Positions 22,206 through 30,471 of a DNA stretch of 39,744 nucleotides are shown here, in pieces. Position numbers and translations under genes: made by a program. The stretch is from Gemmatimonadota bacterium. GTDB lineage: Bacteria > Gemmatimonadota > Gemmatimonadetes > Longimicrobiales > Gaopeijiaceae. The notes below the pieces were generated by a model. It made no database searches. It had not been told where the DNA came from and saw nothing but the letters and a program-made list of their open reading frames with translations. Position 1 is the first letter of the stretch, and each line of letters opens with the position of its first letter. The stretch is taken from the NCBI GenBank assembly GCA_007121455.1, contig SKKN01000067.1:1-39744 (forward strand), read 5' to 3'.

Positions 22206-22240
22206 GCTCACCTTAGTCTAAAAGACTGAGCTTGGTGGGC
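22206..22240 (+). other. Large stem-loop just ahead of the SAM-II aptamer
   Basis: GCTCACC (22206-22212) pairs with GGTGGGC (22234-22240), and inside it CTTAGTCT pairs with AGACTGAG around an AAA loop. The helix ends where the riboswitch P1 region begins. An alternative pairing TGAGC (22227-22231) with GCTCA (22239-22243) is mutually exclusive. It may be a terminator of the preceding gene or part of the leader. Confidence 0.55.
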
Positions 22241-22241
22241 T

Positions 22242-22297
22242 CAGGGTGATTTACGGCGTATTGCGACCCGGTGAGAGCCGAACCGCTAAAAAGCCGT
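22242..22297 (+). ncRNA. SAM-II riboswitch aptamer upstream of metH
   Basis: The segment carries the SAM-II landmarks in order: GGTGATTTA at the P1/L1 junction (22245-22253), GTATTGC in loop L1 (22258-22264), and GCTAAAAAG (22285-22293). P1 is formed by GGGT (22244-22247) with ACCC (22266-22269). The pseudoknot is formed by ACGGC in the loop (22253-22257) with GCCGT (22293-22297), a five-pair helix. Known SAM-II RNAs such as metX and metA leaders have the same loop and GCTAAA strand, and they lower expression when S-adenosylmethionine is abundant. The next genes, metH and a homocysteine methyltransferase/MTHFR fusion, make the methionine needed for SAM, so the context fits fully. Confidence 0.88.
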
Positions 22298-22311
22298 GCC
22301 TCCGCGGAGGC
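22298..22311 (+). terminator. GC palindrome abutting the riboswitch pseudoknot strand
   Basis: GCCTCCGCGGAGGC is a perfect 14-bp inverted repeat starting one base after the pseudoknot strand and followed by TCTTCTTC. It may be the expression platform, a weak transcription terminator whose formation depends on SAM binding. The T run is poor, so this is tentative. Confidence 0.4.
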
Positions 22312-22471
22312 TCTTCTTCAGCTCCCTTCGCCACACGTCCGTCATTCACCCGCAACATCACCCCAAAGGTGCGGCCCCTCCCTTGCAAGGAGATCGGCAA
22401 GCCTCTCGAGGTTCGCGCACGGATTTCGTGCGGATCATGCTGTTCATAAAACAAAAAAAGACCGGACCCCT
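22312..22471 (+). other. Long metH leader with hairpin and possible leader peptide
   Basis: After the riboswitch there are about 160 nt before the metH ATG. They contain a 6-bp hairpin (CGCACG 22416-22421 with CGTGCG 22427-22432). A 12-codon frame starts at ATG 22437 and its TGA (22473-22475) overlaps the metH ATG. An A-rich stretch (22448-22459) precedes the metH start, which lacks a clear Shine-Dalgarno site. Confidence 0.4.
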
Positions 22472-26230
<3,759 letters not shown>

Positions 26231-26240
26231 GGAAGAACCG

Positions 26241-28169
26241 ATGACGGATTCACTACGGAAGCTCATCGACGACGACCGCGTGCACGTGCTGGACGGCGCC
26301 ATGGGGACGCTCCTCTACAACCGGGGCGTCTTCATGAACGTCTGCTACGACGAGTTGAGCCTCACCGAGCCGAAGCTCGTGGAGAGCATCCACCGGGAGT
26401 ACCTGGACGCCGGGGCCGAAATCGTGGAGACGAACACCTTCGGCGCGAACCCCGTGAAGCTCTCGAGCTGGGGACTCGAGGAACAGGTCGAAAAGCTCAA
26501 CGAGGCGTCGGCCAGAATCGCGGTCCGTGCTGCGAACGGCCGGGCGTTCGCGCTCGGAGCGATCGGTCCGCTCGGCATCCGGATCGAGCCGTGGGGCCCA
26601 ACTGCGAGGGAAGGCGCCGAGGCGCACTTCCGGCGGCAGGTGGACGGCCTGGTTGAAGGAGGCGTCCACGGCTTCGTCCTCGAGACCTTTTCCGACCTCA
26701 CCGAGCTTCAGCAGGCGCTTAAGGCCATCCGCTCGGCATCCGACCTCCCGGTCTTCGCACAGATGACGGTGGGAGACGACGGAGAGACGTCCTACGGAAC
26801 GGACGTGGAGACGATTGCACGAACGCTCACCGCGTGGGGAGTCGACGTCGTCGGACTCAACTGCTCCGTGGGGCCGGCAGCGATCCTCGACGCTGTGGAG
26901 CGGATGGCGCGGGTGACCGACCTTCCTCTGTCGGCCCAGCCGAACGCAGGTGTTCCCCGTACGGTCGGCGACCGGAAGATGTACCTCGCGAGTCCGGAAT
27001 ACATGGGGCAGTATGCCCGCCGGCTCATCGACGCGGGCGTCCGGTTCCTCGGAGGGTGCTGCGGCACCACACCGGAACACATCCAGGCGATCCGGGGGAC
27101 GGTCGCGAGCCTTCAGCCCCCCCAGGGACCGGTCCGAGTGGGAGTAGCGGACCCGCGCGCTTCCGGCACGTCGTCAGCCGGCGATGCCGTGCCGAAGGAC
27201 GCCGTGCCCCTCGAGCAACGGTCGCGGTGGGGCTCCAGGCTCTCTCGGGGAGAGTTCGTCACCTCCGTCGAGATCGTGCCTCCGCGAGGATGGGACACCG
27301 CCTCGATGGTGCGGGACGCCGAGAGGATCCGGGACGCCGGGGTGGACACCGTCAGCGTCGTGGACTCGGCCCTGGGGCGGCACCGGATCGGGGCGATCCC
27401 GGCGAGCCTTCTCATCGAGCAGCGGGTGGGCATCGAAACCGTCGTGCACTACCCGTGCCGAAACCGCAACATGATGGCGATGATCTCAGACCTGCTCGGG
27501 GCTGCTGCCGGCGGGATCCGAAACCTTCTGCTCGTCAGCGGTGACCTCATTCCGTCGGGGCCCTACCCCGACCCGGGAGACGGAGTCGACATCGATTCGA
27601 TCGGTCTTACGAACGTCGTCCATTACCTGAACCGTGGGATGGATCCGGGGGGAGGAAGCCTCGATCCTCCGACGGAGTTCGTGATCGGGGTGGCAATGAA
27701 TCAGGGGGCACGGGACCTCGATGCGGAGGTCCGTCGCTTCGGGTGGAAGGTGGAGGGGGGAGCAGAGTTCGCGATCACACAGCCCCTCTTCGACGGCGCT
27801 GCCCTGGAACGTTTCCTGGACCGCACGGAGGAATGGTCGATTCCGGTGGTGGCGGGTGTCTGGCCGCTCACCTCTCTTCGAAACGCCGAGTTCCTCGCGA
27901 ATGAGGTCCCGGGGATTCACATGCCGGAGAAAGTGTTGAGCCGGATCCGGGACGCGAACGACCGGGGGCGTGAGGCGACCGAGGAAGAAGGGGTCCGCAT
28001 CGCCCTCGAGGTGCTGGAGACGGTGCGCCACCGAGTCCAAGGGGTGCATGTGAGCGCACCGCAGGGACGGGTGGACCTCGCCCTCCGCGTTCTGGAGGAA
28101 TTGGGCGGCGACCGGGTGGAGGGAGCGGAAGGAGAAGGGCTGGGAGTACGCACCTCCGGAGCCGCCTGA
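26241..28169 (+). CDS. Bifunctional homocysteine S-methyltransferase / methylenetetrahydrofolate reductase
   Basis: A 642-residue fusion like B. subtilis YitJ. Residues 1 to about 290 are a homocysteine methyltransferase barrel ([26 protein letters not shown]) with zinc cysteines in VGLNCSVG (near 207) and GGCCGTTPEHI (near 272). Residues from about 330 on are MTHFR: FVTSVEIVPPRG, the flavin-contact segment LLLVSGDLIPSG, and FAITQPLFD with the catalytic-region Gln. It would make methyl-tetrahydrofolate for MetH and may also methylate homocysteine itself. ATG 26241 has GAGGAAG upstream and lies 10 bp after metH. Confidence 0.94.
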   Translation: MTDSLRKLIDDDRVHVLDGAMGTLLYNRGVFMNVCYDELSLTEPKLVESIHREYLDAGAEIVETNTFGANPVKLSSWGLEEQVEKLNEASARIAVRAANGRAFALGAIGPLGIRIEPWGPTAREGAEAHFRRQVDGLVEGGVHGFVLETFSDLTELQQALKAIRSASDLPVFAQMTVGDDGETSYGTDVETIARTLTAWGVDVVGLNCSVGPAAILDAVERMARVTDLPLSAQPNAGVPRTVGDRKMYLASPEYMGQYARRLIDAGVRFLGGCCGTTPEHIQAIRGTVASLQPPQGPVRVGVADPRASGTSSAGDAVPKDAVPLEQRSRWGSRLSRGEFVTSVEIVPPRGWDTASMVRDAERIRDAGVDTVSVVDSALGRHRIGAIPASLLIEQRVGIETVVHYPCRNRNMMAMISDLLGAAAGGIRNLLLVSGDLIPSGPYPDPGDGVDIDSIGLTNVVHYLNRGMDPGGGSLDPPTEFVIGVAMNQGARDLDAEVRRFGWKVEGGAEFAITQPLFDGAALERFLDRTEEWSIPVVAGVWPLTSLRNAEFLANEVPGIHMPEKVLSRIRDANDRGREATEEEGVRIALEVLETVRHRVQGVHVSAPQGRVDLALRVLEELGGDRVEGAEGEGLGVRTSGAA

Positions 28170-28256: not shown

Positions 28257-29131
28257 CAATCCACGGGACCCTGCACACCTCCCTCCGCCTCGACGGTTTC
28301 CAGGACGCTGTCGAGGCGGGGGCCCACCTTCCTGACCCCCATGTTGGCAAGATAGATCTTCTTCACGCCGAGGCCCTGGATGGCCCGGACCGTCCGCGCG
28401 CAGATCTCCTCCGCAGTGGCTCCGCTCTCGAACTCTCGCATCAGATCATCCGTCGGAACGGGGAAGAATTCACCGAGCCGGTCGAGCGTGGTTCGATTCG
28501 CACTCCGGTAGAAGAACACTCCGAAGACGAGAGGCATCTCGAGCTTCTGGCGCTCCACCTCCTCGAGAAACCGTTCCACGGGGCCGAGGTCGTGATGGGA
28601 CACGACCTGGGTCAGCGCGAAGTCGGCTCCGAAACGCTCTTCACCCAGCCAGCCGACCTGCTCCGCCGGATCACGGAAGGGGTTCGACCATCCCCCGAGA
28701 AGCAGCTCCGGAACGCGCTCGCGTACGAGTCGCCGAAGGTCTCGCGACCGCGGGACGCACCGCGGCGGACCCACGTTCTGGTCCCCGCCGATCACCACCA
28801 CCCCACCGAACCCGGCAGAGTGGGCTCGCTGTGCGTACATGAGACAGTACTCCAGCGAATGCTTGCAGGTGAGGAAGGGAGCGGCCAGGGAAAGGTCCGC
28901 GTCCTGACCCAGGTTCGCGGTCAGGTGCCGAAGGTTCTCTTCTTCCCGGTCACCCACCGCGTCGTCCGTCAGGAAGAGGGGGTGCCCGCCGCGCGTCAGC
29001 CTGCGCAGGGAGTGGTGCAGGTCGATCCATGAATCCATCGAGTCCCGCGCACGCAACCCGATCCTCGGGGGTCGCAGCTCCACCGAGATGAGCGGATCGG
29101 GGCCCAGAAGCGCCTTCTCCAGTGCAGCCAT
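28256..29131 (-). CDS. Stand-alone methylenetetrahydrofolate reductase-family protein
   Basis: A 291-residue protein with the MTHFR barrel pattern: SVELRPPR at the N-terminus (the Glu of the family FEFFPPR motif is kept), AAPFLTCKHS, VVVIGGDQNVG in place of the usual RGD flavin-contact motif, ADFALTQVVSHHD (Gln of ITQFFFD kept), and KKIYLANMG near the end. It is clearly divergent from the MTHFR module encoded 100 bp away on the other strand, so it may use a different folate, flavin or partner. The start ATG (29129-29131) overlaps the pepP stop as TGATG, with GGAGGA upstream, so it is the last gene of the archease operon. Confidence 0.82.
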   Translation of the reverse strand: MAALEKALLGPDPLISVELRPPRIGLRARDSMDSWIDLHHSLRRLTRGGHPLFLTDDAVGDREEENLRHLTANLGQDADLSLAAPFLTCKHSLEYCLMYAQRAHSAGFGGVVVIGGDQNVGPPRCVPRSRDLRRLVRERVPELLLGGWSNPFRDPAEQVGWLGEERFGADFALTQVVSHHDLGPVERFLEEVERQKLEMPLVFGVFFYRSANRTTLDRLGEFFPVPTDDLMREFESGATAEEICARTVRAIQGLGVKKIYLANMGVRKVGPRLDSVLETVEAEGGVQGPVD

Positions 29132-30471
29132 CAAAGGGTTCCTCCCACCAACGCCTCGACACCATCTACATCCACCGGCAACTCCTCCGTCAGGTTTTCC
29201 ATCCCTTCCTCCGTAACCAGCACATCATCTTCGATACGAATTCCGATTCCCTCGTACTCGGCGGATCGATCCTCGTCGCCGCCGGGAGGAAAATAGAGGC
29301 CGGGCTCCACGGTGAGAACCATTCCCGGTTCCAACACCCGCGGCCGGCCATCCCGCACGTAATCCCCGACATCGTGCACATCGAGGCCGAGCCAGTGCGA
29401 AGTGCGGTGAGGATAGTACGCCTGGTGCGCTTTTCGTTCCAACAAGCCGTCGGTTTCCCCTTCCAGCACCCCGAGTCGGACGAGGCCCTCGACGAGCACT
29501 CGAGTGGCCGCGTCATGCACCCCGGCCAACGTCTTACCGGGCGCGATCGCAGCCAGCGCTGCTCCGTGAGCCTCCAGGACGATCTCGTAGATGGCTCGCT
29601 GCTCGGGAAGGAAGCGACCTGAAGCGGGGAACGTACGGCTCACGTCCCCTGCGTAGAGGCCAACTTCCGCTCCGCCGTCCAGGAGCACGAGGTCGTGCGG
29701 GCCCACGGTGTCGTGATTCTCCACATAGTGGAGGACACATGCATTTCCCCCGGACCCCGCGATCGTGGCGAAGGCGGGACCCCGTGCCCCCCGTCTTCGA
29801 AATGTGCTCTCGAGCGCAGCCTCGATCTCCCATTCCCCGATCCCCGGGCGGGCCTCCACCATCGCGGCGCGGAACCCCGCCACGGTCACGGCAGCGGCCC
29901 GGCGAATCTGCTCCACCTCCTCGTGATCCTTCAGGAGCCGCATTTCATCCAGGATCCTGCCCGGATCCGTGACCCCCCTCGGGCCGGTCCCCTTCCGCGC
30001 CACCCGAGCCCTCCCCCTCTCGAGCTCCGCCAGGACGAGTCGGTCACACCGAGCATCCGACCCCAGGCGGTAGTGGATCTGCTCGGCGTCGGCGACGAGA
30101 CCGGAGAAGCTCGATTCGAGCTCCGCCACGGAATGCGCCTCGGCACCGTGGCGCTCCGCCGCACGGGAAGGCCCCAGACGCGGGCCCGACCATCGCTCCG
30201 CACGTGCGTCCTTCGGTTGCACGAAGAGCAGGAAGTCCGGAGCCTCTTCCCGTCGCCGGAAGACCGCGACGGCGCCGGGCTCCGTAAACCCGGTGAGATA
30301 GAAGAGCTCGGAGGAAGGACGATACCGGTACTCCGAGTCCCCGCTGCGGCGCGCGACGGGAGCGGAAGGAAGGACGAGGACGTCTCCTTCCAGAGCATCG
30401 AGCAGACGCTCGCGCCGCTTCTGAAACAGGTCCGGGGTGAAGCCTTCGAAGGAGTCGGCGTCCGAGATCAT
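29131..30471 (-). CDS. pepP: Xaa-Pro aminopeptidase (M24B family)
   Basis: A 446-residue two-metal aminopeptidase that removes N-terminal residues preceding proline. The N-terminal AMP-N domain (RRERLLDAL, SEYRYRPSSELFYLTGF) is followed by the pita-bread fold from about residue 180. Metal ligands are in LVLLDGGAE (Asp), YAGDVSRTFP (Asp), SHWLGLDVHDVG (His), VLTVEPGLY (Glu) and GIGIRIEDD (Glu). All are present, so it should be active. It overlaps the rtcB stop by 4 bp and the MTHFR-like start by 1 bp, which indicates tight translational coupling. Confidence 0.95.
   Translation of the reverse strand: MISDADSFEGFTPDLFQKRRERLLDALEGDVLVLPSAPVARRSGDSEYRYRPSSELFYLTGFTEPGAVAVFRRREEAPDFLLFVQPKDARAERWSGPRLGPSRAAERHGAEAHSVAELESSFSGLVADAEQIHYRLGSDARCDRLVLAELERGRARVARKGTGPRGVTDPGRILDEMRLLKDHEEVEQIRRAAAVTVAGFRAAMVEARPGIGEWEIEAALESTFRRRGARGPAFATIAGSGGNACVLHYVENHDTVGPHDLVLLDGGAEVGLYAGDVSRTFPASGRFLPEQRAIYEIVLEAHGAALAAIAPGKTLAGVHDAATRVLVEGLVRLGVLEGETDGLLERKAHQAYYPHRTSHWLGLDVHDVGDYVRDGRPRVLEPGMVLTVEPGLYFPPGGDEDRSAEYEGIGIRIEDDVLVTEEGMENLTEELPVDVDGVEALVGGTL

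Follow-up and report, generated by a model that had tools for sequence, protein, structure and literature searches.

The window, i.e. the whole stretch of 39,744 nucleotides of a Gemmatimonadota contig that was analysed, carries metH, the gene of a cobalamin-dependent methionine synthase of 1252 aa (22472–26230, + strand; Pfam Met_synt_B12, S-methyl_trans, Pterin_bind and B12-binding), whose start at 22472 is supported by alignment with the leaders of the two nearest relatives (L008 and L007). A gene for a homocysteine S-methyltransferase/methylenetetrahydrofolate reductase fusion (26241–28169, + strand; Pfam S-methyl_trans and MTHFR) starts 10 nt past the metH stop, and Pfam analysis thereby bears out the two-gene operon proposed in a preliminary description of this DNA. 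The arrangement appears to be kept in most of the family genomes checked; in most of them a second S-methyltransferase match was found about 3.5–4 kb past the metH start. The host, which had been judged not to look alphaproteobacterial, is indeed a gemmatimonadote. Convergent with the operon lies an MTHFR-like frame just under the Pfam cut-off (28259–29134, − strand), possibly a second methylenetetrahydrofolate reductase, and four tRNA genes are clustered at 152–627 (− strand).

The 5' leader of metH contains the element under study (22242–22311, + strand). Direct reading of the sequence gave a 5' hairpin P0 (UGAGC/GCUCA, 22227–22231/22239–22243), followed immediately by P1 (GGGU/ACCC, 22244–22247/22266–22269), for which pairs were also counted in relatives and which is predicted to enclose the SAM-binding loop. 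The loop holds the core motifs GAUUU (22248–22252) and UAUUGC (22259–22264), kept in the family and in canonical class-mates, and between them the 5' strand ACGGC (22253–22257) of the pseudoknot helix P2, which pairs with GCCGU (22293–22297); all five pairs are standard. P1 is followed by an inserted hairpin P3 (GGU-GAGA-GCC, 22270–22279) in place of the single-stranded SAM-II linker, by the linker GAAC (22280–22283) and by GCUAAA (22285–22290), which is kept in family matches. Directly after P2 stands a terminator-like hairpin (GCCUC-CGCG-GAGGC, 22298–22311) with a weak tail, UCUUCUUC, the whole covering 22298–22319. Further upstream TAGTCT (22214–22219, + strand) may tentatively be regarded as a −10 element by its position, with TATACAT- or TACCTT-like boxes in much the same position in relatives; a sigma-70 consensus site was not detected in this region of the window. 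The pairing, motifs and coordinates of the preliminary description all read as written, and its distance of about 175 nt to metH agrees with the 174 nt between 22297 and the ATG at 22472. It had named the core SAM-II parts correctly and had overlooked the extra hairpins P0 and P3.

Homology and covariation of the metH leader element

An Rfam gathering scan of the window reported the four tRNAs and nothing at the riboswitch site. RF00521 (SAM-II) aligns with the element from end to end at 10.7 bits against a gathering cut-off of 36, which is the curated model's cut-off and not a biological criterion; a plain Rfam scan overlooks the element for this reason. The covariance scan that had been suggested as a check of the assignment thus gave a low score, yet P1 and P2 are kept in the relatives. 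The loose pattern GATTTN{4,16}TTGCNNNCCN{5,25}GCTAAA matched once in the window and not at all in 100 shuffles; of 58 related genomes it matched 15 (reversed control: 0). Within the window's own family 11 further genomes were hit, at sites upstream of metH. A covariance model built from 12 leaders (R1; the window and 11 family relatives) found matches in 95 of the 121 family genomes (32 of 40 genera) and, in a phylum sample, in 232 of 298 genomes (E ≤ 0.1), with up to four matches per phylum genome. Downstream of the family matches inspected, metH follows in 76 of 80 cases and a metX-like gene in two.

Eight of ten class-mate loci tested passed the RF00521 cut-off with 38–58 bits. Since these class-mates are homologous to the window element, its low Rfam score is not decisive against SAM-II. 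A second covariance model (R2), built from 27 class-mate matches only and containing no window sequence, scored the element at 52.5 bits (E 1.9e-10) as the sole match at E ≤ 10 in the 3.5-Mb genome. As R1 had served to gather the R2 members, their choice was not independent of the form seen in the window; a minor impurity among them is one leader (L059), the MetH of which clusters with the window's family.

The core is kept almost without change: among the 80 family matches GAUUU is conserved at 97–100%, UUGC at 100% and GCUAAA at 97–100%, and the core letters of canonical class-mates are the same. Covariation of P1 and P2 among relatives, which had been named beforehand as a check, was found for P1 and for the inner P2 pairs. 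The innermost P1 pair is C-G in 46, U-A in 22 and U-G in 10 of 78 distinct relatives and is never unpaired; the third P2 pair is G-C in 63, G-U in 7, A-U in 4 and C-G in 2 family matches, and the inner P2 pair changes from C-G to U-A in a few. All five covariation summary measures lay above slid controls, and changes on both sides occurred in 51 cells compared with 23.5 in shuffles. Standard pairs at the two outer P2 positions occur in roughly half of the relatives or fewer, and the five-pair helix is therefore partly a local feature of the window: it is real there, as had been described, and only its inner three pairs are kept across relatives. Nor is its length unusual, as the earlier comparison with a shorter metX helix had implied, for a P2a of 5 bp is the usual SAM-II state (60%; PMC6061858).

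Taken at face value, the low RF00521 score and the unremarkable free-folding energy of the leader (z −0.7, obtained with a folding in which a pseudoknot is not representable) would fit a chance resemblance, or a leader conserved for some other reason such as a protein site or a promoter. The probability of such a reading is practically negligible, as it is refuted by the R2 match and the covariation, in addition to the pattern controls and the spread of R1 matches through the family. The SAM-II class that had been assigned earlier is thus upheld by the R2 match, by transitive homology to elements which pass RF00521, by covariation and by a near-universal linkage to metH; the evidence supports a SAM-II element of remodelled form, for which SAM binding is predicted.

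A remodelled SAM-II form with P0 and P3 hairpins

With SAM-II (RF00521) the element shares the GAUUU...UAUUGC...GCUAAA core, P1 and the H-type pseudoknot P2, as well as the position upstream of methionine genes, a putative promoter near P1 and, in many members, terminators on the 3' side. Canonical class-mates possess a P1 of 6 bp (CGUGGY/RCCACG), followed by a single-stranded UUAAACAA-like linker. In the window's subgroup, by contrast, P1 is down to 4 bp and the place of this linker is taken by the hairpin P3 and a conserved GAAC; an extra P0 is present as well. As the element has a P3 helix, while P3 is stated to be absent in SAM-II (PMC6061858), it was filed as a variant. P0 and P3 make it a SAM-II variant and not a standard member, and its novelty is one of form: the 4-bp P1, P3 with GAAC instead of the linker, and the 5' hairpin P0.

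The P3 loop type differs among relatives (GAAA, GUAA, GAGA or UUCG), and long stems occupy the P3 position in 35 other family members (mean z −2.9 against shuffles), one family genus having almost no linker there. The short P3 pairs themselves hardly vary, so that the support for P3 comes from its differing loop types and from relatives with long stems, and not from strong covariation. P0 recurs as GAGC...GCUC in other short-P3 leaders, with one compensated change (GGGCC/GGCCC in L034).

In SAM-V a 4-bp P1 is followed by a 3-bp P3 stem-loop, with A40–A42 facing the P1 minor groove (PMC6061858). The same layout recurs in the window, i.e. a 4-bp P1, a 3-bp P3 after it and an A-containing linker before the second P2 strand, and it is this likeness which could suggest a SAM-V (RF01826) instead of a SAM-II riboswitch; in two close relatives the RF01826 score (21.4 bits) even exceeded that of RF00521 (17–18 bits), both values being below the respective cut-offs (41 for RF01826). 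However, RF01826 gave no match in the window even at E ≤ 10, its cut-off was passed by none of 58 family genomes, and the window is matched strongly by the model of canonical SAM-II elements (R2). Furthermore, the window has a 5-bp P2 and the SAM-II core sequence, and its P2 contains no Shine-Dalgarno sequence, the ATG lying 174 nt downstream, whereas SAM-V acts on translation (PMC6061858). We therefore regard a SAM-V identity as very unlikely. The element is best described, on sequence grounds, as a SAM-II core with a long P2 into which a SAM-V-like P3 has been inserted. Membership in the SAM-II long-loops family (RF01726), which likewise comprises divergent SAM-II with an altered linker, was rejected: its consensus differs by long A-rich loops and lacks P3, the window gave no match, and the cut-off was passed by 0 of 117 family genomes.

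The search also unveiled a group of elements of SAM-V-like layout with the Shine-Dalgarno sequence inside the pseudoknot, for example at 2835–2902 of a Limnohabitans record (L126), which reads GGGG-GAUUU..UCC..UUGCGACCCC-(3-bp hairpin)-CGCUAAA-aGGAG-AUG, and in L122, L123, L132 and L139. The records are labelled beta- or gammaproteobacteria, except for L132 (Actinomycetota). The L126 element scored 27.5 bits with RF01826 (E 0.004), below the cut-off. Related proteins of about 200 aa are encoded after the L126 and L139 elements; Pfam gave no match for the first 110 aa of the one in L126, and the Limnohabitans element found no counterpart when used as query against a phage database. Viral-contig matches of a loose pattern (L144 and L145) were discarded, as on a quick look they resemble unrelated phage sequence and show neither a methionine gene nor a riboswitch context.

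In a MetH tree of 76 sequences the short-P3 leaders form one clade (support 100/96) which adjoins canonical leaders from other families, and the long-P3 and minimal types lie on other branches. The leader-type label changes 6 times on this tree compared with 39 times with shuffled labels; so few changes indicate that the leader type is inherited with the gene, with either repeated gains or repeated losses of P3. One contig assigned to family f7 (L059, genome G251) carries a MetH and a leader which fall inside the window's family, by either transfer or mis-binning. One may picture that a single family rebuilt its metH-leader SAM-II aptamer several times, with short capped P3, long P3 or minimal linkers, so that a SAM-V layout arose from a SAM-II ancestor; on this view P3 would be a module that can be exchanged while the SAM-binding triplex stays fixed, and the two classes, SAM-II and SAM-V, would form one continuum. 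The chances of this scenario seem to us evenly balanced. Within the family nature has provided a series of P1/P3 variants around a constant binding core, by which the relation of SAM-II to SAM-V can be put to the test.

Predicted ligand and regulatory output

In view of its sequence, pairing, covariation, homology and gene linkage, the element in the 5' leader of the metH-(BHMT/MTHFR) operon is very probably a Gemmatimonadota-specific form of the SAM-II aptamer, predicted to work as a SAM OFF switch that likely acts via termination. At high levels of S-adenosylmethionine the ligand would occupy a major-groove triplex of GAUUU, UAUUGC and GCUAAA and lock P1 and the P2 pseudoknot; the short P3 would cap P1 and set the GAA(C) linker along the P1 minor groove, as P3 does in SAM-V. 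The operon would then be OFF, most likely because the hairpin directly after P2 is left free to terminate transcription.

The choice of SAM as ligand is supported indirectly by analogy within the family, where SAM-I and SAM-II are both employed ahead of genes of one kind: of the 14 SAM-I loci detected, most lie in front of a metX-like gene, and canonical SAM-II stands ahead of metX-like genes as well (metX identity being a reading of the protein sequence and not the result of a family search). This suggests that SAM sensing is habitual in this pathway. SAH riboswitches elsewhere also control methionine-cycle genes, and P1 and the linker are remodelled in the window element, so that a SAM-II fold with a switched ligand, e.g. 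SAH or methionine, has to be considered. Such a switch is most unlikely, however, as its conserved core nucleotides do not differ from those of canonical class-mates and SAM-II strongly rejects SAH (PMC1273637).

Some genomes contain both classes. In G024 (L082 and L173) SAM-I occurs together with the SAM-II variant before metH, and both were also found in G003, G008, G013, G019, G072 and G090, SAM-I being placed mostly before a metX-like gene. A survey of 2007 had seen SAM-I and SAM-II together in no species (PMC2258182).

With respect to the output, the long distance to metH had been set against classic cases in which SAM-II hides the ribosome-binding site. This contrast does not hold: SAM-II acts most often on transcription, and the translational metX example is a rare one (PMC6061858, PMC2258182). 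Terminators commonly follow P2 in SAM-II (PMC1273637), and in the family P2 is usually followed, after a few bases at most, by a hairpin. At least five T within 10 nt after the hairpin were counted in 44 of 80 family matches and in 20 of 27 class-mates. A terminator scan found 36 of 80 compared with 14.5 expected in shuffles, a sizeable background which makes this result supportive only. Transcription attenuation by termination is predicted from such sequence features as the most likely output.

For S. meliloti both models exist, attenuation (predicted) for metZ and translational control dependent on leader distance for metA, and both were weighed for the window; these SAM-II leaders differ from ours in being alphaproteobacterial and in their target genes (PMC9373788). 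In metA SAM-II acts on translation with the Shine-Dalgarno sequence 74 nt upstream of the start (PMC9373788), and in the window the same aptamer could act at a distance on translation, or through Rho-dependent termination, via the 174-nt leader. The window terminator is weak, with a stem of 5 bp and a broken U-tract; an obvious terminator is absent in L007 and L008, which also have long leaders; and antiterminator pairing of the 5' strand of P1 with the terminator arm did not exceed that of mismatched pairs (permutation p 0.12). Owing to these three observations a translational or Rho-dependent output stays a serious rival. We nevertheless rate it as rather unlikely with regard to the terminator-like hairpins found so frequently directly after P2 in the wider family and the class-mates, and attenuation by termination is the output we prefer.

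Distribution in Gemmatimonadota

Descriptions of SAM-II usually place it in Proteobacteria and some Bacteroidetes. The matches described above place it widely through the phylum Gemmatimonadota. Literature searches, with most subscription journals and the Rfam species lists outside their scope and hence no proof of novelty, returned no description of SAM-II in this phylum. As the metH-leader form of the window's family is under the standard database detection limit, annotation overlooks most of its members.

The metH leaders of genus g12 (L180 and L181) showed no detectable SAM-II, and R1 had no match in the 11 genomes listed; in two g12 genomes (G011 and G058) a metX-like gene is preceded by SAM-I. 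In L187 (1260–1360) and the equivalent region of L188, metH leaders hold another divergent SAM-II-like sequence, GATTTGTGGCCGCTTGC ... GTCTAAAGTGCC, the latter in place of GCTAAA, and their MetH proteins are about 38% identical to that of the window. In L102, L114, L119 and other class-mates canonical SAM-II stands before genes other than metH, which by sequence apparently encode homoserine dehydrogenase and threonine-synthase-like proteins.
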